The position numbers and the translations under genes were made by a program. Of a stretch of DNA of 64,000 nt, positions 3-58,408 are shown in pieces (the stretch's first letter is position 1; every line of letters begins with the position of its first letter). The stretch covers positions 78,993 to 142,992 of the forward strand of contig CAJOGI010000002.1 in the NCBI GenBank assembly GCA_905234075.1. Direction: 5' to 3'. The notes under the pieces are model-generated. The model saw only the letters and a list, made by a program, of their open reading frames with translations, was not told where the DNA came from and did not search any database. This DNA is from an uncultured Synergistales bacterium. GTDB taxonomy: Bacteria > Synergistota > Synergistia > Synergistales > Aminobacteriaceae.

Positions 3-347
3 TGCAGAATTATGGATTACGGGAAGTACCGCTATCAGTTGCAGAAAAAAGAAAAGGACGCTCGCAAGAAGCAAAAGGTCCAAGCCCTGAAAGAAATCAA
101 AATGCGCCCGAAAATCGACGAGCACGATTTTGATTTTAAGACGAAGGCCGTGAGAACTTTTTTAGAGAGCGGACACAGAGTAAAAGTGTCGGTGTTCTTC
201 AGAGGCCGCGAGATGTCTTTTCTTGAGAGAGGCGAGGAAGTATTGAACCGCGTCATGGCAGAGTGCGAGGACGTTGGCAAATGCGAGTCTAAGCCCATGA
301 TGGAAGGGCGTTACATGAGGCTCTTATTAACACCGTTAAAGAGTTAG
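3..347 (+). CDS. infC: Translation initiation factor IF-3, C-terminal part (5' truncated by window edge)
   Basis: The reading frame is open from base 3 and begins C-R-I-MDYGKYRYQ, the conserved linker/start of the IF-3 C-terminal domain. The true start therefore lies outside the window. The rest (FKTKAVRTFLESGHRVKV, then FRGREMSFLERG) is the C-domain that binds the 30S platform, blocks premature 50S joining and monitors the start codon. Synteny with rpmI and rplT just downstream is the classical infC-rpmI-rplT operon. The stop codon TAG (345-347) lies inside a heptad repeat unit (342-373), so the last residues LKS are followed directly by repeat sequence. Identity is certain; only the N-terminal domain is missing. 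Confidence 0.96.
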   Translation, partial: CRIMDYGKYRYQLQKKEKDARKKQKVQALKEIKMRPKIDEHDFDFKTKAVRTFLESGHRVKVSVFFRGREMSFLERGEEVLNRVMAECEDVGKCESKPMMEGRYMRLLLTPLKS

Positions 348-373
348 GAGTTAGGAAGTAGGAGTTAGGAGGT
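342..373 (+). repeat. 32-bp G-rich heptad repeat unit at the infC 3' end
   Basis: This unit is made of degenerate heptads GTTAGGA/AGTAGGA and ends in AGGAGGT. By hand alignment it matches the unit in csaB (52666-52697, opposite orientation) at about 28 of 32 positions. It contains the infC stop codon and sits in the infC-rpmI gap. Its terminal AGGAGG is too far from rpmI to be that gene's ribosome-binding site; rpmI has its own GAAAGGAG at 417-424. Confidence 0.8.
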
Positions 374-1016: not shown

Positions 1017-2068
1017 TGCCCGAAGTTAATGATTTGAATATTCAAGCCGTAAAAGAAAATTTCGATGCGGCATTGAGGGCTGTATCAAATCTCGAAGAAC
1101 TTGATGAAATTCGCGTAAGGTTTACCGGGAAAAAAGGAGACCTTACGCTTTTATTAAGGGGACTTGGAAAATTACCGCCCGAACAGCGCAAAGAAGCCGG
1201 CCAAGAAGTTAATAAATTACGCGATGAAATAGAACACGAGCTGGAAATTACCGGCAAAAAAATCCGCGACTCTGAGAACGAAAAAAAAGAAATCAACGAG
1301 CGCATTGACGTAACTTTATCTGAAAAAGGACGCACCGCCGGAGCTTTTCACCCTGTAATGCAGACTATGCACGAGATAGCTAATATAATGCAGGGCTTGG
1401 GCTATTCAGTCGCAACAGGGCCGGAAAAAGAAGAAGAATTTTATAATTTCGAGTGTCTCAACGTTCCCTCATGGCACCCGGCACGCGATATGCAGGACAC
1501 TTTTTATTTTCCTGACGGAACTTTATTACGAACTCATACATCGCCCGTGCAGATTCGTTCCATGCTGAAATACGGTGCGCCGCTTAGAATAATTTGTCCC
1601 GGAAAAGTTTACAGGCGTGACAACGACACGACACACTCTCCGATGTTTAATCAAATGGAGGGGTTATTGATCGATAAAAATGTCCCCTTCAGCGTCATGA
1701 AAGGCACAATGTCGGAAATGTTAAACGCCTTCTTCGGACGCAGTCTGAAATACAGATTTCGCGCAAGCTATTTCCCGTTCACCGAGCCTTCAATGGAGCT
1801 TGATATTGAGTGCGTAGAATGTTCAGGGCATGACGAACACTGCCGCGTATGTCATGGAACAGGCTGGCTTGAAGTCGTCGGAATGGGCATGGTCCACCCG
1901 AACGTAATACGCGCCGGAAAGATCGATCCGGAAATTTATAACGGTTTTGCTTTTGGAATTGGCCTTGACCGAATGGCTATGCTTAAATATGGAATTTCGG
2001 ATTTAAGATTATTATTTGACGGCAACGTTTCTTATTTTATGTCGGGATTTAATTCAGGTAGGAGGTAG
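1016..2068 (+). CDS. pheS: Phenylalanine--tRNA ligase alpha subunit
   Basis: This 350-residue class II synthetase catalytic subunit of the (alpha beta)2 PheRS charges tRNA-Phe. It has an N-terminal coiled-coil arm (about 1-95), class II motif 1 (HPVMQTMHEIANIMQGLGYS, about 117), motif 2 around RTHTSPVQIR (about 172) with the RRDNDTTHSP loop, and motif 3 FGIGLDRMAMLKYGISDLR near the end. A CxxC...CxxC cluster at about 265-282, common in bacterial PheS, is intact. It overlaps rplT and is followed by pheT after 6 bases. The final residues SGRR and the TAG stop are encoded by a partial heptad repeat (2056-2073), replacing the usual short C-terminal tail. Confidence 0.97.
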   Translation: MPEVNDLNIQAVKENFDAALRAVSNLEELDEIRVRFTGKKGDLTLLLRGLGKLPPEQRKEAGQEVNKLRDEIEHELEITGKKIRDSENEKKEINERIDVTLSEKGRTAGAFHPVMQTMHEIANIMQGLGYSVATGPEKEEEFYNFECLNVPSWHPARDMQDTFYFPDGTLLRTHTSPVQIRSMLKYGAPLRIICPGKVYRRDNDTTHSPMFNQMEGLLIDKNVPFSVMKGTMSEMLNAFFGRSLKYRFRASYFPFTEPSMELDIECVECSGHDEHCRVCHGTGWLEVVGMGMVHPNVIRAGKIDPEIYNGFAFGIGLDRMAMLKYGISDLRLLFDGNVSYFMSGFNSGRR

Positions 2069-2073
2069 GAAGT
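2056..2073 (+). repeat. Partial heptad repeat forming the pheS terminus and the pheT ribosome-binding site
   Basis: The sequence AGGTAGGAGGTAGGAAGT is about two and a half heptads of the dispersed G-rich repeat. It encodes the last two Arg codons and the TAG stop of pheS. It also places GGAGG about 11 bases before the pheT ATG (2075), so one repeat fragment serves as both termination and initiation signal. Confidence 0.7.
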
Positions 2074-15208: not shown

Positions 15209-15233
15209 AAAAAGGCATTATAGCATTTTGAGC

Positions 15234-15265
15234 AGGTAGGAGTTAGGAGTTAGGAGGTAGGAAGT
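15234..15265 (+). repeat. 32-bp heptad repeat unit upstream of mrdA
   Basis: The unit is built from AGGTAGGA/GTTAGGA heptads. By hand alignment it matches the csaB unit (52666-52697, opposite strand) at 30 of 32 positions, the best match in the window. It lies between mrdA and the nucleoside kinase gene, about 25 bp upstream of the mrdA start. Confidence 0.85.
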
Positions 15266-27500: not shown

Positions 27501-27532
27501 AATTCCTAATCCCTAATTCCTAATCCCTAATT
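27501..27532 (-). repeat. 32-bp heptad repeat variant upstream of the PpiD-like gene
   Basis: Read on the minus strand this is alternating TTAGGGA/TTAGGAA heptads. It is 32 bp long, the same length as the canonical unit, and aligns with it at about 23 of 32 positions. It lies between polA and the PpiD-like gene. Confidence 0.65.
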
Positions 27533-27561: not shown

Positions 27562-28902
27562 ATGTTAGATTTCCTGCGCAAACAAATGAAATGGGTTATG
27601 GCAATAGTCGTCGTTGCTTTCCTGCTTTCAACGTTTTTTATGTATGAGGGCGGAACAAGACGCAAGCCGACCCGCAACGCCGACGGCACTATGAGCGATT
27701 ATGAAGTCGCGCAGATTAACGGACGCTCTTTTATGCGTTCAGAGCTTGAGCAGAGACTTAGAAGCTATCTTGGCACATTCAGCTCGCGCAATACAGCCTC
27801 GCTTGACATGCCGGCACTTTATCAGACAGTTCTCAATCAGGCCGTGCTTGAGTCTCAGCTTCTTAAAGAAATTGATGAACAGGGAATTAGAGTTTCCGAT
27901 GCTGAAGCTGAAGAGGCCATGAAAAATTATGCAGACACATATTATCCTACACGCGAAACTTTTTATCAGGCCCTTGATCAGTCAGGAATTAAAGTTGAAG
28001 ATTATAAAAGAAATTTAGCGCGGCAGATAGCGGTTGACCGCTTAATGAATAATGCTGTAGGCGAGATTAACATCAGCGAAGACAAGGCCGTAGAATTTTA
28101 TGATTCGATGAAGGAATTATTTTTCACGAAGCCCGAAGGCTTTATGGTACATATGGCAGACTTCAAAACGAGTGCTGACGCTGAAGCCTTCAGAGAAAAA
28201 TTAGTCGGCGGCGCAAGCTGGGACGTTATAGCTTCTGACGATAACGTAAATTCGGGCGATGTAATTAACATTACAAAAGAGCCCGTATTCCTTCCGTCAA
28301 ACGCGCTGAGATTAGGAACGTTCTCCGCTTTAGCATCGCTTGATATTTCCGAGCCTAGCGAAGTGCTTAATGTTTCAAGTTTTGATTTTGCTGTCGTAAT
28401 GAAAACCAGCAGCGTTGACAAAGTTGTCAGACCTTATGATGAAGTCAGCGGCGATATAAGAAATCTTTTAACTCAAGAGGAACAGCGCGTGAGACTAGCA
28501 AAATATAACGAGACTTTGACGGCTAAAGCCAATCTCGTCATCAATGACAAGGAATTATTTGAACGCCCTGCGGTATCTGACGACACAAAAGCAGAGCCGG
28601 AAGTTACTCTTGAAGACATCAGCGGAGATGTAACGCCCGAAAAACCTGAAGCAGTTGACGAAGTTAAAGAAGAGGCCAAGTCCGAAGAAATTAAAACTGA
28701 AGAGCAAAAATCAGAGGACATTCCTGCACCCGTTGAAGCTCCTGCGGAAGTCAAAGCCGAAGAAGTGAAGGAAGAAGCAGCTCATGAAGAGCCTGCAAAA
28801 TCCGAAGAAGCTCCGAAAGTTTCTGAAGCAGTCGAAGAAGTTAAGGACGAGCCAAAATCTGAAGATGTCAAAGCAGAAATAATTTCAGAAGACAATGACT
28901 AA
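27562..28902 (+). CDS. PpiD/SurA-like periplasmic chaperone with an acidic Lys/Glu/Pro-rich tail
   Basis: This 446-residue protein has an N-terminal membrane anchor (WVMAIVVVAFLLSTFFMY) and a SurA_N-type chaperone domain (VAQINGRSFMRSELEQRL, VLNQAVLESQLLKEIDEQGIRVSDAEAEEAM, about 50-170). A rotamase-like region follows (about 190-300) without convincing PPIase active-site residues. The last roughly 120 residues are a low-complexity tail rich in E, K, A, P and V (EEVKEEAAHEEPAKSEE), which is unusual for PpiD. It would assist folding of exported proteins from the outer face of the inner membrane. Shine-Dalgarno is GAGAGAGGG. It is a single gene between polA and the asd operon. Confidence 0.75.
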   Translation: MLDFLRKQMKWVMAIVVVAFLLSTFFMYEGGTRRKPTRNADGTMSDYEVAQINGRSFMRSELEQRLRSYLGTFSSRNTASLDMPALYQTVLNQAVLESQLLKEIDEQGIRVSDAEAEEAMKNYADTYYPTRETFYQALDQSGIKVEDYKRNLARQIAVDRLMNNAVGEINISEDKAVEFYDSMKELFFTKPEGFMVHMADFKTSADAEAFREKLVGGASWDVIASDDNVNSGDVINITKEPVFLPSNALRLGTFSALASLDISEPSEVLNVSSFDFAVVMKTSSVDKVVRPYDEVSGDIRNLLTQEEQRVRLAKYNETLTAKANLVINDKELFERPAVSDDTKAEPEVTLEDISGDVTPEKPEAVDEVKEEAKSEEIKTEEQKSEDIPAPVEAPAEVKAEEVKEEAAHEEPAKSEEAPKVSEAVEEVKDEPKSEDVKAEIISEDND

Positions 28903-28908
28903 ATAATT

Positions 28909-28929
28909 AATTCCTAACTCCTAGCTCTT
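28909..28929 (-). repeat. Partial heptad repeat after the PpiD-like gene
   Basis: AATTCCTAACTCCTAG is two to three heptads of the dispersed repeat in minus orientation, 7 bases after the stop codon. Confidence 0.5.
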
Positions 28930-29051: not shown

Positions 29052-30140
29052 TTGCAGAAAAAATTACGTGTCGGCGTTCTCGGAGCTACGGGAATGGTCG
29101 GGCAGCGTTTTATTCAAATTCTCCACAATCACGAATGGTTTGATATTAAAGTCATAGCCGCGTCACCTAACAGCAAGGGCAAAACTTACGATGAAGCAGT
29201 CGCGGGCCGCTGGCTTCTCGATGAAAAAATCCCGGAGAACGTCAAAAATATGAGACTTCACGATGTCAATGACGTTAAGGGAATTTCTGAAGAAGTTGAT
29301 TTTGTTTTCAGCGCGGTCAATATGTCAAAAGACGAGATCAAAGCGATCGAAGAGGCCTACGCAAAATCAGAGACCCCCGTAGTCTCTAATAACAGCGCAC
29401 ACCGCTGGACACCTGATGTCCCGATGATAATTCCCGAAATTAACCCTGAGCACGCGGAAATTATTAATGCTCAGAAAAAAAGATTAGGAACTTCGCGAGG
29501 ATTTATTGCAGTAAAACCGAACTGCTCAATACAGAGCTATTCTCCGGCTTTTGCGGCTTGGCGCGAGTTTGAGCCGTATGAAGCAATCGTTACGACTTAT
29601 CAGGCAATTTCGGGAGCAGGAAAAAATTTCAATACTTGGCCCGAAATGGTAGGCAACGTCATTCCGTTTATAAGCGGCGAGGAAGAGAAGAGCGAGAAAG
29701 AGCCGCTGCGCATATTCGGAAAAGTTGAAGGCAATGAAATAATCCCGGCTAAAGAGCCTGTAATTTCTGCGCAGTGCGTAAGAATACCCGTGCTTTACGG
29801 ACACACGGCGGCTGCCTTCGTGAAATTCAGAAAAGCTCCACCGAGCAAAGAAGTTTTAATCGAAAAGCTAAATAATTTCAGGGGCATTCCGCAGGAAGCT
29901 AATTTACCTACAGCTCCGAAACAGTTTATAAAATATTTTGAGGAAGATAACAGACCGCAAGTTGCTCTTGATGTAAATTACGAACACGGAATGGGCGTAT
30001 CGATCGGCAGGCTTCGTCAGGATAATATTTACGACTGGAAATTTATCGGGCTTTCTCACAATACTTTGAGGGGCGCGGCCGGCGGTGCTGTTGAATGTGC
30101 CGAACTTCTTGTCCATCAGAAATATATCGAGGCAAAATAA
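29052..30140 (+). CDS. asd: Aspartate-semialdehyde dehydrogenase (archaeal/fungal-type)
   Basis: The TTG at 29052 is preferred since AGGAG lies 10 bases upstream and the protein then begins directly with LRVGVLGATGMVGQRFIQ, the NADP-binding Rossmann motif. The 362-residue enzyme makes aspartate semialdehyde, the branch point to lysine, threonine and methionine. The catalytic Cys is in VKPNCSIQSYSPA (about 160) and the His in VLYGHTAAAFVKF. GATGMVGQRF and the spacing of motifs resemble the archaeal/fungal subclass. hom follows after 2 bases, so the two form an operon. Confidence 0.93.
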   Translation: MQKKLRVGVLGATGMVGQRFIQILHNHEWFDIKVIAASPNSKGKTYDEAVAGRWLLDEKIPENVKNMRLHDVNDVKGISEEVDFVFSAVNMSKDEIKAIEEAYAKSETPVVSNNSAHRWTPDVPMIIPEINPEHAEIINAQKKRLGTSRGFIAVKPNCSIQSYSPAFAAWREFEPYEAIVTTYQAISGAGKNFNTWPEMVGNVIPFISGEEEKSEKEPLRIFGKVEGNEIIPAKEPVISAQCVRIPVLYGHTAAAFVKFRKAPPSKEVLIEKLNNFRGIPQEANLPTAPKQFIKYFEEDNRPQVALDVNYEHGMGVSIGRLRQDNIYDWKFIGLSHNTLRGAAGGAVECAELLVHQKYIEAK

Positions 30141-30142
30141 AA

Positions 30143-31165
30143 ATGATAAACATTGCAATTTTAGGACTTGGGACAGTCGGCGGCGGTGTTGCTGAAGTCG
30201 TTGAAAAAAATCAGCGCGAAATTAAAAAAGTTTTGGGCGAAGATCTGCATGTCAAATATATTCTCGACATTCGAGACCTGCCCGGCGTTGTCAAGGACAT
30301 TAACACAATCGTCAACGACCCGGATATTAAAGTCATCTGCGAAACAATGGGAGGCAAAGAGCCGGCCTGCACTTACACTCATTTAGCATTAGAGCACGGC
30401 ATTTCCGTCTGCACTTCAAATAAAGAACTTGTTGACGCTCACGGCGTTGAATTAAGCACGATAGCCCGTGAACATCATTGCAGTTATTTATTTGAAGCAA
30501 GCGTCGGCGGAGGCATTCCTGTCTTGAGGACAATACGTGAGGCCTGCGGACATGAAAAAATTTCAAAAATCGCAGGAATTTTGAACGGCACCTGCAATTA
30601 TATTTTAACGAACATGAAAGCCGGAAGAGCTTTTAATGACGTTCTCAAGGAAGCTCAAGAAAAAGGCTTTGCCGAAAGAAATCCTGCAGCTGACGTTGAG
30701 GGCCACGACACTGCGAGAAAAATTGCTATCCTTGCGTCGTTAGTATCAGGCAAAAAATTTTCTTATGAACAGGTTTCCTGCGAGGGCATCACGAATATTA
30801 CTCCCGAAGATTTTGCCGAAGCTGAAGCAAAAGGAATGTCAATAAAACTGCTCGGAGTTTATGACGCTGAAAATAACAGCGTGCTCGTTGCTCCTCATCT
30901 AATTCCGAAAGAACACGCGCTTTATAACGTCAACGGAGTTTTCAACGGAATTTTAATTCACGGCAACATGGTTGACGATTTAATGTTCTACGGAAGAGGC
31001 GCAGGAAAACTTCCGACAGCGAGTGCGGTTGTTTCTGACGTTATCGAATGTGCAAAGAACATCGGAAAAAATATTAATAACAACTTCGCCGACTTAGAGC
31101 CTGCTAACGTCAACAAAGCACCTGAAAAACCGCAAGGACAAAAATTTAGAGTATTAGACAGTTAG
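30143..31165 (+). CDS. hom: Homoserine dehydrogenase
   Basis: Starting at ATG 30143 the product has 340 residues with INIAILGLGTVGGGVAEVV (nucleotide binding), TSNKELVDAHG, FEASVGGGIPVLRTIRE, GILNGTCNYILTNM, and DVEGHDTARKIAILA, all standard homoserine dehydrogenase motifs. It reduces aspartate semialdehyde to homoserine. The C-terminal ACT regulatory domain found in longer forms is absent, so feedback by threonine through ACT is not expected here. The TAG stop (31163-31165) lies in a heptad repeat unit, as with infC: both end AGT-TAG-GAG. Only 2 bases separate it from asd. Confidence 0.94.
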   Translation: MINIAILGLGTVGGGVAEVVEKNQREIKKVLGEDLHVKYILDIRDLPGVVKDINTIVNDPDIKVICETMGGKEPACTYTHLALEHGISVCTSNKELVDAHGVELSTIAREHHCSYLFEASVGGGIPVLRTIREACGHEKISKIAGILNGTCNYILTNMKAGRAFNDVLKEAQEKGFAERNPAADVEGHDTARKIAILASLVSGKKFSYEQVSCEGITNITPEDFAEAEAKGMSIKLLGVYDAENNSVLVAPHLIPKEHALYNVNGVFNGILIHGNMVDDLMFYGRGAGKLPTASAVVSDVIECAKNIGKNINNNFADLEPANVNKAPEKPQGQKFRVLDS

Positions 31166-31227
31166 GAGGCAGAAATTAGGAGTTAGGAATTAAAAAAACT
31201 CCTGCTCCTCCCTCCTAACTCCTGCCT
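31160..31227. repeat. Inverted pair of heptad repeat units between hom and the aspartate kinase gene
   Basis: Left unit 31160-31191 (plus orientation) and right unit 31196-31227 (minus orientation) face each other with almost no spacer. They could form a long imperfect hairpin immediately after the hom stop codon and 7 bp before the aspartate kinase ATG. The left unit supplies the hom stop. The arms are more diverged than the 34255-34407 pair. Confidence 0.65.
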
Positions 31228-33759: not shown

Positions 33760-34260
33760 ATGCAGAAAATCCGCTGGAACTTTTATATCACAGGAGGAAT
33801 TTTAATTCTTCTCGGTGCTTTAACGTTTTTTTATCCGCTTGAAGCAATAATGACGGTCGGTTTATTTATCGGCTGCGGCCTTGTTGCGTCAGGCTTGAAT
33901 TATTTTTCGGGATTTTATTTTTTTGGGCTTAAAAGATTTATCGCGCTTGGCCTCTTGGATTTTATTGCGGGCGTGATAATGATTGCGCAGCCGGGAATTT
34001 CAGCTTTCTTTATGCCTTATGTAATAGGCTTGTGGTTTTTGCTGACGGGTCTTTCAAGAATGTGCGCGGCGTTCTGGCTCGGCGGTGCAGAAATTCGCGG
34101 CTGGTGGTACATGTTAATTGACGGCATAGCTTTAATAATTTTTGCGTTCGCGATGTTCGCTGCGCCGTTAATAAGTTCGATCTCGCTCATGATGCTTTTA
34201 GCAGGAATTTTAATAGCGTCAGGAGTGCTCTCGATTTTCGAGGGACGTTTGGTCAGGTAG
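33760..34260 (+). CDS. DUF308/HdeD-like membrane protein
   Basis: This 166-residue protein consists almost entirely of six predicted membrane helices in three pairs (GGILILLGALTFFYPLEAIM, VGLFIGCGLVASGLNYFSG and so on), with the repeated G-x-L...G pattern of DUF308/HdeD proteins. Function is unknown apart from links to acid resistance for E. coli HdeD. AGGA precedes the ATG. The last codon AGG (Arg) and the stop TAG are the first six bases of a 153-bp palindromic repeat element (34255-34407), so the native C terminus may have been altered by it. Confidence 0.85.
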   Translation: MQKIRWNFYITGGILILLGALTFFYPLEAIMTVGLFIGCGLVASGLNYFSGFYFFGLKRFIALGLLDFIAGVIMIAQPGISAFFMPYVIGLWFLLTGLSRMCAAFWLGGAEIRGWWYMLIDGIALIIFAFAMFAAPLISSISLMMLLAGILIASGVLSIFEGRLVR

Positions 34261-34407
34261 GAATTAGGAGGTAGGAATTAGGAGGTTTTTATTAGGCAAA
34301 AGCTATCTTCAAAAAATCATGCGTTACTTGTTATCAAAAAGCAACGTAATCACAATAGTTAGAAAATATCTTTTTACCTCCTACCTTCTGCCTCCTAACT
34401 CCTACCT
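34255..34407. repeat. 153-bp palindromic element made of two inverted 32-bp heptad units
   Basis: Left arm 34255-34286 and right arm 34376-34407 are each exactly 32 bp and match in inverted orientation at 27 of 32 positions. They enclose an 89-bp AT-rich core. Each arm begins, read outward-in from its gene, with AGG-TAG. The left arm supplies the last Arg codon and stop of the DUF308 gene; the right arm supplies the last Arg codon and stop of clpB on the opposite strand. The element thus exactly fills the gap between two convergent genes. Confidence 0.85.
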
Positions 34408-36987
34408 AAAAATAAGTTCTCCGGCTTTTACGTCAACATTAACGACAGCTTTCTCCCTAATTCCTCCTGCAATTAATGCGCGTGCAAGTTTCGTCTCAAC
34501 GTTGTGAGTTATATATCTCTTCAGCGGCCTCGCTCCGTAAACGGGATCATAGCCTGCCGAAGCTATAAAGCTCAAAGCCTCATCAGTAAATTTTAATTCT
34601 ATCTGACGGTCGGCAAGTCTTTCAGAAAGATGACCGAGCAAAATTTTCACGATCTCTTTCACTTCGTCTTGGCTTAACGGCTTGAAGAAAACTATATCGT
34701 CAACTCTGTTCAAAAATTCCGGCCTGAAGTGTTCGCGCAACGCCCGCATGACTTCTTCACGAGCAGAAAGAGAAATCATGCCTCCGACAATTCCCTCAAG
34801 CAAAGCCTGCGAGCCTATATTACTCGTCATAATTATTACGGTGTTCTTAAAATCAACGACGCGGCCATGACTGTCTGTAACTCTTCCGTCATCGAGAACC
34901 TGAAGCAAAATATTAAAGACATCGGGGTGAGCCTTTTCGATCTCGTCAAATAATATGACACTGTACGGCCTGCGCCTGACTGCTTCAGTTAATTGTCCGC
35001 CCTCATCATAGCCGACGTATCCGGGAGGAGCTCCGACCAAGCGCGACACTGAGTGCTTCTCCATATATTCGCTCATGTCGATTCTTATCATGTTGTCCTC
35101 GCTGTCGAATAAAGCTTCAGCTAATGTCCGGGCAAGTTCCGTTTTTCCGACACCTGTCGGGCCGAGAAATATAAACGAACCGATCGGGCGTTTAGGGTCT
35201 TTAATTCCGCTCCTTGCTCTCAAAACCGCATCGGCAACTAAAGTAACGGCCTCGTCCTGACCGACAACGCGCTTGTGTAAAATTTCGTCGAGCTTCAATA
35301 ATTTTTCGCGTTCGCCCTCAAGCAGCCTATTAACAGGAATACCCGTCCAGCGGCTTACGATGTCGGCTATCTCGTCTTCCGTAACTTCCTCGCGCAGTAA
35401 TTTTTTCTCGTCAGGTTTTGCGGAGTCGGCTTTAACTTTTTCTTTCGCCATTAAAACATTTTCGAGCTCTCGTAATTTTCCGTAGCGTAATTCAGCGGCT
35501 CTGCTTAAATCGTATGCGCGCTCGGCTTTTTCAATTTCGGCTTTAATATTTTCAATTTCGGCGCGTAAATTTCTAATCTCTGCGATTGATTTTTTCTCTG
35601 TCTCGTATTGAGCGCGTAAAGTGTCGGCTTCGGCGCGTGCCTCCTGTAACTCTTTCTGAAGAGCTTTTAATCTCTCTTTGCTCGCTTCGTCCTCTTCGTG
35701 TTTTAACGCGGCCTCTTCGATTTCAAGCTGTAAAACTTTTCTTGAGGCGTTGTCGAGTTCCATAGGCTGTGAGTCAATTTCTGTCCTAATCATGGCACAA
35801 GCCTCGTCAACTAAATCAATAGCTTTATCAGGCAAAAATCTGTTCGTGATGTATCTGTTCGACAACACCGCCGCCGCAACAAGCGCATTATCGCGGATAG
35901 AAACGCCGTGATGAGCCTGTAACTTTTCGCTTATGCCTCTTAAAATTGAAATAGTATCTTCAACTGTCGGCTGTTCAACATCAACCGGCTGAAAGCGTCT
36001 TGCTAACGCCGCGTCCTTTTCGATATATTTCCTGTATTCATCAACTGTTGTCGCACCTATGCAGTGAAGTTCACCGCGTGCAAGCATAGGCTTTAACATG
36101 TTGCCTGCATCAACGGCTCCTTCGGCGGCTCCGGCTCCGACTATAGTATGAAGCTCATCGATGAATAATAAAATTCTTCCGTCGCTGTTCTTAATTTCGT
36201 TGAGTACGGCTTTCAATCTTTCTTCAAATTCGCCTCTGTATTTTGCTCCGGCGACGAGAGAGCCCATATCGAGAGCAAAAACAGTCCTGTCCTTCAAACC
36301 TTCGGGGACATCTCCGCGCACAATCCTTTGAGCAAGCCCCTCAACGATTGCCGTTTTTCCGACACCGGGATCGCCGATTAAGACGGGATTATTTTTAGTC
36401 TTGCGCGACAAAATTCTAATCACTCTGCGAATTTCATCATCACGGCCTATGACTGGGTCGAGCTTGCCGTTTTTAGCCGCTTGAACTAAATCGCGCCCGT
36501 ATTTTTCAAGAGCTTCATAAGTTGCTTCAGGGTCCGCGCTCTGAACGCGCTGAGAGCCTCTGACTTCGGTCAGCACTTTCAAAAATTTTTCTTCTGTTAC
36601 GTTAAATTCTTTCAATGACTTTGAAATATTAATCATCGCCATGAATAAATGCTCAACCGAAATATATTCGTCTTTGAGATTTTTCGCGAGCTCTCCGGCC
36701 TTCGTGAAAACATTTTCAAGTCTGTTAGTTATGTAAATTTTTCCCTGCTCGACTCCGCCGCCGGTAACACGCGGAATTTTTGCAAGTTCTTCTTCAACGG
36801 ATTTTTCCAGCATATCCGCGTTAATATCCATTTTCTTTAATAATTGAGGTATAAGTCCGCCGTTGTCTTTAATCAAAGCTAAGAGCAAATGCTCCGCGTC
36901 AACCTGCTGATGATTATATTCTGACGCTGTAGCCTGAGCGGCCGCCAGAGCCTCCTGACTCTTGCGCGTTAATTTGTTCATGTCCAT
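34402..36987 (-). CDS. clpB: ATP-dependent disaggregase ClpB
   Basis: ATG 36987 is preferred over an in-frame GTG at 36996 because GGGAG lies 8 bases upstream of it. The 861-residue protein shows the full ClpB layout: double Clp-N repeat ([26 protein letters not shown]), AAA1 with GDPGVGKT and [13 protein letters not shown], the long coiled-coil M domain with many Glu/Lys/Arg (about 400-530), AAA2 with GPTGVGKT and [14 protein letters not shown], and the D2 small domain. It works with DnaK to resolve protein aggregates. The final Arg codon and TAG stop belong to the palindromic repeat. No CIRCE-like operator was recognised upstream. Confidence 0.96.
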
Positions 36988-37059
36988 AATTTTCACTCCC
37001 TTATAAAATTCTTAACTAACTTTGACTAATTTTAGAACTACTTAAAAAATTTTTCAATC

Positions 37060-39322: not shown

Positions 39323-39379
39323 GAGGAGTTAGGAAGGAATTAGGGAGTTGGGTTTTTGCTCAGCTCCTTAATTTTTTTT
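39323..39379 (+). terminator. Rho-independent terminator of argG built partly from heptad repeat sequence
   Basis: TTAGGGAGTTGGG (39340-39352) pairs with CTCAGCTCCTTAA (39359-39371) over 13 bp including G-U pairs, followed by eight T residues. The 5' arm continues a degenerate heptad tract (GAGGAGTTAGGAAGG from 39323), so the stem seems to have been made from a repeat copy. Confidence 0.8.
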
Positions 39380-40385
39380 ATAACTCATGAAGCGAAGGGT
39401 CAGGGATAACATCAGTTTCAAAAAATTTTTTTCGAGTCCATGAATTTCTCCCGGCCATTGCGACCATGACGGCGTTGTCCGTACAGCGTTTTAATTCCGG
39501 GAGCCAAGCGCGGAAATTTTTATTATTTTTCAGAGCATCGCGCAGCGCACTATTAGCCGATACTCCGCCCGAAGCAGAAACTTTTTTTATTCCAGTAAGT
39601 TTTACAGCTAAATTTATTTTTGCGGTCAAAGCCTCCGTTACGGATTTTTGAAACGACGCACATAAATCATCAATGGGAATTTCTTTGCCTTCGTTTTCAA
39701 ATTTTTTTACCTGCCATAATAAAGCCGTCTTCAAACCGCTGAAGCTAAATTCTATTTTATCAGTATTTTTTAGCGGCACGGGAAAATTAAATGCGTGAGG
39801 GTCTCCGATTTTTGCTCGCCTGTCAATTTCCGGGCCGCCCGGATATTTTAATCCGAGTATTCTCGCGGCTTTGTCGTAGGCTTCTCCGGCTGCATCGTCG
39901 CGTGTCTGTCCGAGCAGTTCATAATTTCCGAACGAATTTACTTTTATAATCTCCGTGTGTCCTCCCGACACTATGAGAGACAAAAACGGCGGCTCTAAAT
40001 CCTGAGCATCAACTAACGGAGCGAACAGGTGCCCCTCAAGATGATTAACGCCGATTAACGGAACGCCCCAGACTTGAGAGAGAGCCTTCGCGGTCTGCAC
40101 GCCGACTATTAAAGACCCCATGAGGCCGGGCCCTCGTGTTACGGCAATTAAATTTAATTCGCGGCCTGAAATATTAATTTCTTTTAACGCGGCATTAACT
40201 AAAGGCAATAAATTTTCTAAATGCTTTCTTGCGGCAAATTCCGGGATAACTCCGCCGAAGCGCGAATGATCTTTAATTTGACTCGAAAGAAATTCGCACA
40301 AGACCTCGTTATCATTTTTTAGAATTGCCACGCCGGTATCGTCGCAGCTTGTCTCAATTCCAAGCGTCAAAAAATTTTTATTCAT
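39378..40385 (-). CDS. tsaD: tRNA N6-adenosine threonylcarbamoyltransferase TsaD
   Basis: This 335-residue ASKHA-fold protein starts LTLGIETSCDDTGVAIL and has the metal-binding HLEGHLFAPL (about 112-121), LIVSGGHTEI, GEAYDKAARILGLKYPGGPEIDR and a final DNAVMVAMAGRNSW, all characteristic of TsaD/Gcp. It transfers threonylcarbamoyl to A37 of ANN-decoding tRNAs with TsaB/TsaE, which are not in this window. Its ATG overlaps the NlpC/P60 gene's 3' end by 8 bases, suggesting co-transcription. The 3' end abuts the argG terminator. Confidence 0.95.
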   Translation of the reverse strand: MNKNFLTLGIETSCDDTGVAILKNDNEVLCEFLSSQIKDHSRFGGVIPEFAARKHLENLLPLVNAALKEINISGRELNLIAVTRGPGLMGSLIVGVQTAKALSQVWGVPLIGVNHLEGHLFAPLVDAQDLEPPFLSLIVSGGHTEIIKVNSFGNYELLGQTRDDAAGEAYDKAARILGLKYPGGPEIDRRAKIGDPHAFNFPVPLKNTDKIEFSFSGLKTALLWQVKKFENEGKEIPIDDLCASFQKSVTEALTAKINLAVKLTGIKKVSASGGVSANSALRDALKNNKNFRAWLPELKRCTDNAVMVAMAGRNSWTRKKFFETDVIPDPSLHEL

Positions 40386-52654: not shown

Positions 52655-53622
52655 AAAAATTTTTTACCTCCTACCTCCTATCTCCTAACTCCTACCTGCT
52701 TCTCGGCTATTACGGCTTCGGAAATCTGGGCGATGAGCTTTTATTGCGGGCCTGCATAAAAATTTTGAATGAACGAGGAATTGAGAACGAAAAAATTATC
52801 GTGCTTTCAAATAATCCTGAAGAGACGCGGAAAAATTTTAATGTTAAAGCCGTCAACCGCTGGAAAATTTTTGAAGTCATAAAGGCTTTGCGCAAGAGTG
52901 AATTTTTAATGCTCGGAGGCGGAGGGCTCTTTCAAGACTCTACTAGCATAAAATCCTGCGTATATTACTGGGCTGTTGTGAGGCTCGCAAAATTGCTGGG
53001 CGTGAAAATTTCCGCAATCGGTCAGTCAATAGGGCCTCTTAATTCTAAAATCGCTAAAATTTTGACATCTAATGCTTTCAAAGCCTGCGAAAAAGTTCAC
53101 GTACGCGACAAAAATTCTTTTAATATCGCTAAAAATTTCGGCTGTAAAAATTTAATTTTAGGTTCTGACTTAGTTATGACGTTAAAAAATACCTCCTGCC
53201 TCCTGCCTCCTGCCTCCTGCCTCTTAATAAATTTACGGCCTTGTGAAAATCTTGAAAGTTTCATAAAAATAATCGCCCCTCACGTAAAAAATTTTGACGG
53301 CAAAAAAATCGGCGCGGCTCTTTCTGAAGATGATGAAAAAATTTTATTTGCTAATAAAAAAATTTTAGGCATAAACGAAATTAAATTAATCAAAAGTTTT
53401 AACGAGGCTGAAAATGTCTGGGCTTTTGCGTCGTGCTGCGTGGGTATGCGTCTTCATTTCGGGGTGCTGTCAAGAATTTTTCAGCGTCCTGTCGCCCTTA
53501 TTCCGTATGATGTAAAAGTTAAAGAGTTCGCCGAACAGTCAAATATTCCTGTCATAATTAATGAATGGCGTGAACCATCAATGCCTTTGAAAATTTCCGA
53601 TTGTGATACAATTTGCCCATGA
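52651..53622 (+). CDS. csaB: Polysaccharide pyruvyl transferase CsaB, with two in-frame repeat insertions
   Basis: ATG 52651 overlaps the DUF5693 gene stop. The 323-residue product has the CsaB core LGYYGFGNLGDELLLRACI, LGGGGLFQDSTS, ISAIGQSIGPL, CVGMRLHFGVLS and a C-terminal RPVALIPYDVKV. CsaB adds pyruvate ketals to secondary cell-wall polymer, the ligand for SLH-domain surface proteins. Residues about 6-16 (TSYLLSPNSYL) come from a 32-bp heptad unit and about 181-192 (TSCLLPPASCLL) from a CCTCCTG tandem array. The first insertion forms the strand leading into the nucleotide-binding loop. Frame and core motifs are intact. Confidence 0.88.
   Translation: MKKFFTSYLLSPNSYLLLGYYGFGNLGDELLLRACIKILNERGIENEKIIVLSNNPEETRKNFNVKAVNRWKIFEVIKALRKSEFLMLGGGGLFQDSTSIKSCVYYWAVVRLAKLLGVKISAIGQSIGPLNSKIAKILTSNAFKACEKVHVRDKNSFNIAKNFGCKNLILGSDLVMTLKNTSCLLPPASCLLINLRPCENLESFIKIIAPHVKNFDGKKIGAALSEDDEKILFANKKILGINEIKLIKSFNEAENVWAFASCCVGMRLHFGVLSRIFQRPVALIPYDVKVKEFAEQSNIPVIINEWREPSMPLKISDCDTICP
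52666..52697 (-). repeat. 32-bp heptad repeat unit inside csaB, N terminus
   Basis: This unit is in minus orientation. It matches the right arm of the 34255-34407 palindrome at 29 of 32 positions and the unit at 15234-15265 at 30 of 32. TAC and TAT replace TAA-type triplets at frame-critical places, so the csaB frame stays open. Confidence 0.88.
53191..53225 (-). repeat. Tandem CCTCCTG array inside csaB
   Basis: About four and a half copies of the heptad CCTCCTG run in frame from codon about 181. The unit is the heptad repeat with G for A at the stop-forming position, which keeps all frames open. Being a perfect 7-bp tandem, it could change length by slippage and shift the frame. Confidence 0.82.
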
Positions 53623-58341: not shown

Positions 58342-58346
58342 CAATG

Positions 58347-58408
58347 AGGTAGGAGTTAGGAGTTAGGAGGCAGGAGTTAGAAACTTCGCTCTCCTTACTC
58401 CTAATTAA
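58347..58408. repeat. Heptad unit plus inverted partial copy between convergent citF and the lipoprotein gene
   Basis: Unit 58347-58378 (plus orientation, about 29 of 32 matches to the csaB unit) is followed by CTCTCCTTACTCCTAATT (58390-58407) in the opposite orientation. The two could form a hairpin serving both convergent genes as a terminator-like structure. Confidence 0.75.

Follow-up and report, generated by a model that had tools for sequence, protein, structure and literature searches.

Facing heptamer arrays at the stop codons of convergent DUF308 and clpB genes belong to a dispersed gene-end family in an uncultured Synergistales bacterium

The window analysed here, a stretch of 64,000 nucleotides from the genome of an uncultured Synergistales bacterium of the rumen (G000), carries a gene for a DUF308 protein and, converging on it from the opposite strand, clpB. 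A 153-bp inverted repeat lies across their junction (Table 1). As it was originally described, and exactly so on recount, the repeat consists of two 32-bp arms that are identical at 27 of 32 positions after reverse complementation and that enclose 89 bp. AGG-TAG closes both genes, and each arm supplies the stop codon of its own gene. The site is the sole instance of 27/32 arms within a 200-bp span in the 64-kb window, and one letter-shuffled version of the window held no arm pair of 27/32 or better within that span. Rfam at gathering score returned nothing from the whole window other than a tRNA. Both arms are tandem arrays of 7-nt units (the array scan used below stretches the boundary of the clpB array to 34370), and at the same site in the sister species G007 each arm is one unit shorter and the spacer is shorter.

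Table 1. Coordinates of the focal site, of other heptamer arrays in the window and of sites of a second palindrome family (window positions unless a contig is named)
Feature	Position	Strand	Remarks
DUF308 protein gene	33760..34260	+	PF03729; HdeD similarity below cutoff; ends AGG-TAG
DUF308 stop TAG	34258..34260	+	within first heptamer of DUF308 array
DUF308 array	34255..34286	+	AGG-(TAGGAAT)(TAGGAGG)(TAGGAAT)(TAGGAGG)-T; sense to DUF308
Spacer, 89 bp	34287..34375		~34323-34370 absent from sister species G007
clpB array	34376..34407	-	AGG-(TAGGAGT)(TAGGAGG)(CAGAAGG)(TAGGAGG)-T; sense to clpB
clpB stop TAG	34402..34404	-	within first heptamer of clpB array
clpB, ATP-dependent chaperone	34402..36996	-	TIGR03346 above cut-off; ends AGG-TAG
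Family array	337..373	+	at stop codon
Short family array	2056..2073	+	from array scan
Family array	15229..15265	+	common to G007
Family array	27501..27532	-	TAGGGAT/TAGGAAT units
Family array	31160..31192	+	stop TAG of ORF 30095-31165 (homoserine dehydrogenase-like by eye); faces 31204-31227
Family array	31204..31227	-	facing partner of 31160-31192
Family array	52665..52703	-	from array scan
CAGGAGG-unit array	53192..53226	-	missed by main scan
Family array	58343..58385	+	end of a convergent gene
Second palindrome family, G000	C1:89714-89760		
Second palindrome family, G000	C1:176639-176680		
Second palindrome family, G000	C2:179050		L200
Second palindrome family, G007	L115:8536		
Second palindrome family, G007	L115:13033		
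Second palindrome family, G007	L176:7126		
Second palindrome family, G007	L176:14275		
Second palindrome family, G007	L178:4308		

The 153 bp were compared with the same genome by BLAST, which gave at least 78 matches (the best 40 of 263 candidates were scored). Apart from the focal site itself, the matches were confined to positions 1-39 or 101-153 of the query, that is, to the ends of the arms. The suspicion that this was a repetitive gene-end feature was borne out, both arms being heptamer arrays of a dispersed family with the consensus CAGG-TAGGAGT-(TAGGARK)3-T. Genome-wide, the pattern TAGGARKTAGGARK with at most one mismatch occurs 864 times (421+443), compared to 5 matches for the reversed control. 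A 783-kb sample of the 1.84-Mb genome, composed of stretches of contigs C1, C2 and C4 and including the window, contained 158 arrays and 667 gene ends, from which about 370 arrays are extrapolated for the genome. The scan seeds on TAGG, and in the final two letters of the unit it accepts A/G and T/G; arrays of the CAGG type are missed, as at 53192-53226, and the array counts are therefore lower bounds.

Unit number was determined for 154 phased arrays. Exactly four units were present in 71, fewer in 77 and more in 6, and the longest clean run of the family in this genome has six. Within the four-unit class, CAGG precedes the first unit in 43 of 71 arrays and the first unit reads TAGGAGT or TAGGAAT in 58 of 71, the constancy of its TAGG being partly built in because the scan seeds on those letters. 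The last unit is followed mostly by T and then by A or T. The last two positions of the unit are variable, and their combinations look independent both between loci and between neighbouring units: identical pairs of four-unit arrays numbered 15 (12.6 expected) and adjacent identical units 37 (34.7 expected). These counts give no sign of clonal copying of one array or of recent slippage, so the arrays are not new duplicates of a single master and not newly slipped products. The in-unit stop codon is not strictly kept, since TAG has been lost from some units (CAG in 36 and GAG in 16 of 471).

The position of arrays relative to genes was assessed with a simple longest-ORF caller (at least 80 aa), with which starts are rough and stops exact. 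Arrays in sense behind a gene number 113, and 103 of them start between -25 and +15 nt of the stop codon; when strand and place were drawn at random within the same gaps (2000 runs), the mean was 40.2 and the maximum 58. The array begins before the stop codon ends in 56 of the 113. Stop codons lying inside an array are TAG in 40 of 54 cases, compared to 84 of 563 for array-less genes. Among the 157 classed arrays, 87 of those in co-directional gaps are sense and 22 are antisense to both neighbours (p 2.5e-10); 26 others read in sense ahead of a convergent gene, 13 occupy gaps between divergent genes and 9 fall within ORFs. Orientation is not absolute, as the clpB gene of the related genome G014 is followed by an antisense array. 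An in-frame AGG-TAG, with the array starting exactly 6 nt before the end of the stop codon, was seen in 12 of 117 sense arrays, a total that takes in those inside ORFs, and both DUF308 and clpB are among the 12, so the boundary that the two genes have in common is a habit of the family. Three arrays lying elsewhere were also observed. Those at C1:259596-259633 and C1:311656-311694 are inside ORFs in G000 and are also present in G007 with several substitutions, and one at position 27821 of the G007 contig C41, which has no counterpart in G000, is placed, as judged by eye, between the ribosome-binding site of a gene and its start codon.

Array neighbours within 200 bp were facing in 11 cases, tandem in 3 and back-to-back in none. 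Facing arms arise because convergent genes each carry a sense array. We compared each arm with its own partner and with random arms, a test that takes in shorter arms and so lowers the partner scores. Partners scored 10.0 in G000 (10 pairs), compared to 13.0 (sd 1.7) for random arms, and 8.1 in G007 (9 pairs), compared to 13.3. The score of the focal pair, 17, is unexceptional for random pairs (14.3, sd 6.5). Partner arms are thus no more alike than random ones, and the palindrome appears as a by-product of tail-to-tail genes. The original prediction of a single 153-bp cassette did not survive: arrays are found one by one, the two arms of a pair show no match beyond that of the family, the DUF308 genes of G014 and G008 have an array and no clpB was found in the loci examined, and the clpB of G041 carries a short array and is followed by a co-directional gene, with no DUF308 gene in the locus. 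The 153 bp are almost certainly two separate members of a dispersed heptamer-array family, one for each gene. Convergent gene pairs in such genomes would give rise to palindromes that resemble mobile cassettes but are not.

It had also been proposed that the element replaced the native 3' ends of both genes. We compared protein ends with G011, a genome with no arrays in the 420 kb examined, using 116 orthologues after those below 45% identity, those ending more than 25 residues before the end of the query and those at contig edges were dropped. Proteins ended within three codons of the G011 orthologue for 22 of 25 array genes and 73 of 91 array-less genes, and within one codon for 18 of 25 and 61 of 91, respectively. 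ClpB ends in GELIFR* here and in GELIFN* in G007, while both the ClpB of G013, which has no array and gives a protein of the same length, and that of G041, with its short array, end in GELIFK*. For clpB, this is the outcome that the original prediction had itself named as counting against it. Replacement was rejected on these ClpB and G011 comparisons; native protein ends were kept.

A facing pair could serve as a bidirectional intrinsic terminator, bidirectional termination having been raised as a possibility in the original prediction. A stem is indeed predicted: RNA of positions 34240-34420 has a predicted fold of -58.7 kcal/mol (z -6.35), and none of 200 shuffles was as good. However, there is no run of T after the 3' arm on either strand, facing arms are no better matched than arms drawn at random, and the sole structure scored at the site is a weak terminator-like hairpin for clpB of -7.2 kcal/mol, located in the spacer about 45-85 nt behind the clpB stop codon and within the part that is missing from G007. 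Gaps of at least 20 nt were then compared by gene orientation. Co-directional ends with an array have fewer terminator-like structures than those without (3 of 28 vs 43 of 107, p 0.003). The G011 orthologues of such co-directional array ends show no excess (5 of 15 vs 8 of 30), and arrays are therefore not replacing terminators; the depletion did not hold up as replacement, and this candidate role was rejected. At convergent ends, terminator-like structures were found at 9 of 14 with an array and 22 of 43 without. Among the convergent ends compared with G011, the array genes have such structures in 5 of 6 cases in G000 but in 1 of 6 in G011, whereas the array-less genes show the opposite trend (6 of 13 and 10 of 13). 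These small numbers are compatible with a terminator role at convergent ends. Some arrays do lend the 5' arm of a hairpin before a T run (e.g. C1:279295 and C1:84260), and complementarity to the array at score 10 was found downstream in 18 of 77 cases but upstream in 0 of 77. On balance we consider it unlikely that the facing pair is a bidirectional terminator. A convergent end at 39323-39400 of the window has a terminator-like hairpin of -22.8 kcal/mol, TTAGGGAG...CTCCTTAA followed by T8, the 5' arm of which overlaps a heptamer-like stretch, as if arrays can lend a terminator arm.

A different role would be translational hand-over, with AGGAGGT acting as Shine-Dalgarno copies that hold the terminating ribosome for the next gene. 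AGGAGGT pairs fully with the tail of the 16S rRNA, since that tail reads GGATCACCTCCTTTC, and 35 of 100 arrays end between -25 and +15 of the next sense start as called from the longest ORF. Two observations weigh against it. The predominance of TAGGAGT or TAGGAAT as the first unit weakens the match, and arrays occur at 14 of 57 convergent ends and 28 of 135 co-directional ends with gaps of at least 20 nt. This similar occurrence at co-directional and convergent ends argues that arrays are not tied to a following gene, and we regard hand-over as improbable.

The two arrays between DUF308 and clpB are, in our reading, probably each active on their own mRNA just behind the stop codon. What they would do there we propose tentatively, with rather less confidence: a post-stop mRNA element that closes further reading frames and may shield the 3' end. 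The purine-rich RNA behind the stop codon would close further frames to a ribosome that missed the stop, the same RNA might shield the 3' end of the transcript, and where arrays face each other the RNA could also fold into a long stem. All three frames are closed on the G strand in 93 of 158 arrays, compared to 39 of 158 letter-shuffled ones, an excess that is partly built in because the unit was used to find the arrays.

The closest known system is the set of GGGAATC and GGGGA(C/T)T heptamers of Xanthomonas and Nostoc. These repeats are described as having a four-unit preference, placement on the coding strand near stops, facing pairs and no known function, and their unit number was associated with the four G-tracts that a quadruplex requires (Rehm et al. 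2015, PMC4692102). The Synergistaceae family has in common with them a tandem 7-nt unit at many loci (158 arrays in the 783-kb sample), the preference for four units, sense placement close to stops (the 103 of 113 given above) and the facing pairs. It differs in lineage, in its TAGGARK unit with GG instead of GGG, an in-unit stop codon and a CAGG start, in a maximum of 6 units compared to runs of up to 26 there, and in having a unit that differs by species at common positions. We therefore treat it as a variant of the Rehm repeats, as the grammar is present in it and the quadruplex feature is not. A G-quadruplex element, as proposed for GGGNATC repeats, is favoured by those likenesses in unit number, strand and pairing. 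With quadruplex energies in Vienna, a quadruplex was predicted in 39 of 158 arrays, compared to 11 of 158 letter-shuffled ones, and a typed G-rich consensus gave a two-tier quadruplex of -9.9 kcal/mol. However, the tracts here are GG only, unlike the quadruplex-forming GGG tracts of the Rehm repeats, and 119 of 158 arrays, as well as both focal arms, are without a predicted quadruplex. A quadruplex function thus seems doubtful for this family. Because the family combines the four-unit grammar with tracts of GG alone and carries a stop codon within its unit, it allows the quadruplex link to be tested against the post-stop mRNA role.

Dispersed heptamers are also known as cyanobacterial STRR, tandem repeats scattered through a genome, for which we know of no stop-codon rule. 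The TAACTGA direct repeats of marine Beggiatoaceae form dispersed intergenic arrays of 2-6 units (MacGregor 2015, PMC4679880). They are likewise dispersed heptamer arrays with stop codons in the unit, but most are located just upstream of start codons, whereas the present family is at stops, and only one inverted repeat is reported there. Intrastrand triplexes are the subject of a further paper (PMC4666352). A search of mostly open-access literature found no account of TAGGAGG arrays in Synergistaceae, and within that search the sole paper containing TAGGAGGTAGGAGG is on sunflower.

Among 61 genomes, the family pattern is dense in five (864, 768, 631, 587 and 202 matches), all of one genus, and the named assemblies related to it are of rumen Synergistaceae or Synergistales. 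Of the remainder, G020 has 16 matches, G013 has 11 and the other 54 have 0-14. An unbiased scan for period 7, aimed at other heptamer families and covering 10-20 kb from each of ten low-family species, a small sample, picked up a single array, in G010; the remaining nine species had none. Between G000 and G007 most arrays are held in common: from G000, 44 of 144 groups could be mapped, with an array in both genomes for 37, a weak one for 3 and none in G007 for 4; from G007, 43 of 114 were mapped, with 36 in both, 5 weak and 2 absent in G000. By eye, a sense array follows DUF308 in G000, G007, G014 and G008, that is, in 4 of 21 copies with a readable stop.

The unit itself differs by species. 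TGAGGRGTKAGGRG occurs 314 times in G014 and 155 times in G041, compared to 19 occurrences in G000 and 27 in G007; the reversed control is raised too (62 in G014 and 23 in G041). Arrays were also compared by gene, at an identity cut of 55% and on contigs of the relatives that are not a random draw: an array was present in G014 at 6 of 10 gene ends that have one in G000 and at 2 of 25 that do not, and pooling G014, G041 and G008 gave 9 of 13 vs 4 of 38, with some genes counted in two species. Within these sequence comparisons, array places are shown to recur at the same gene ends while the unit differs by species. The evolutionary question posed by the family is what holds several hundred dispersed arrays in position under those circumstances.

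The same comparisons bear on whether the family is a selfish or mutationally driven repeat that arises or inserts at TAA/TAG stops by homology and is merely tolerated. The restriction of dense genomes to one clade looks like a burst, and sister species do differ in the presence and absence of arrays, which bears on the mobility suggested earlier. One clean empty site, at C1:34699, has TTTATTTT on both sides, which may represent a target duplication or a slippage deletion; other absences are ambiguous. A single Y1_Tnp (PF01797) match is present in each of two genomes with arrays, G041 and G008, and similar arrays occur in viral-collection contigs. Against this, a search for PF01797 came back empty for G000 (100% complete), G007 (75%) and G014 (96%), the copies are not clonal, arrays recur at the same gene ends though units differ, and the array at 337-373, absent at the same site of G007, is more simply explained as lost there because it is present in G014. 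A selfish origin is a lesser possibility, but one to be taken seriously.

REP and BIME elements are small palindromic intergenic repeats found at gene ends and associated with RAYT transposases. The present arms differ from them in being heptamer arrays that also occur singly, and a RAYT/REP system was excluded for G000, G007 and G014 by the lack of a PF01797 match.

An exact pattern scan of IMG/VR yielded 12 contigs of 40-65% GC, and a phage portal or terminase gene was found in three of the six scanned (L238, L240 and L244). The portal protein of L240, one high-GC contig, has relatives only below 60% identity. The 12 contigs hold 51 arrays, which were selected by the search for their sequence and not for orientation, flank or place. 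All 14 pairs that they form within 200 bp are facing, a stop codon adjoins 17 of the 30 sense arrays, four is the modal unit number (17 of 50), and CAGG is the commonest 5' flank (12 of 50). L238, L240, L241, L242, L244 and L245 were each observed to have several arrays, many at stops; GCGGCC palindromes break up some of the arrays of L240 and L241, and the arrays of L244 reach about 100 nt.

Returning to the post-stop reading, we raise as a speculative extension, less likely than the role at the focal genes, that a stop-anchored heptamer element with one grammar (opening with CAGG, four units long, in sense where the gene stops, and with pairs that face and are never back-to-back) constitutes a general class of mRNA 3'-end element, represented by this Synergistaceae clade and the viral-collection contigs, which differ greatly in base composition and some of which have phage genes. 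If so, some copying or selection process would rewrite the unit genome-wide (TAGGAGG in G000, TGAGGRG in G014) while places are held, and the Xanthomonas quadruplex repeats would be one branch of an unrecognised general class.

Two further repeats were observed in these genomes. At 28600-28910 of the window, the 3' part of a coding region contains long in-frame repeats, EAVEEVK-like by eye, with a difference of several hundred bases between the G000 and G007 versions. Small palindromes of a second family (CCTGCC...GGCAGG, GCCTGC...GCAGGC) lie inside or beside heptamer arrays, with heptamer units no more than 25 nt away in 4 of 7 sites of a G000 sample and 5 of 6 of a G007 sample, and at several sites the palindrome is present in G007 and not in G000.
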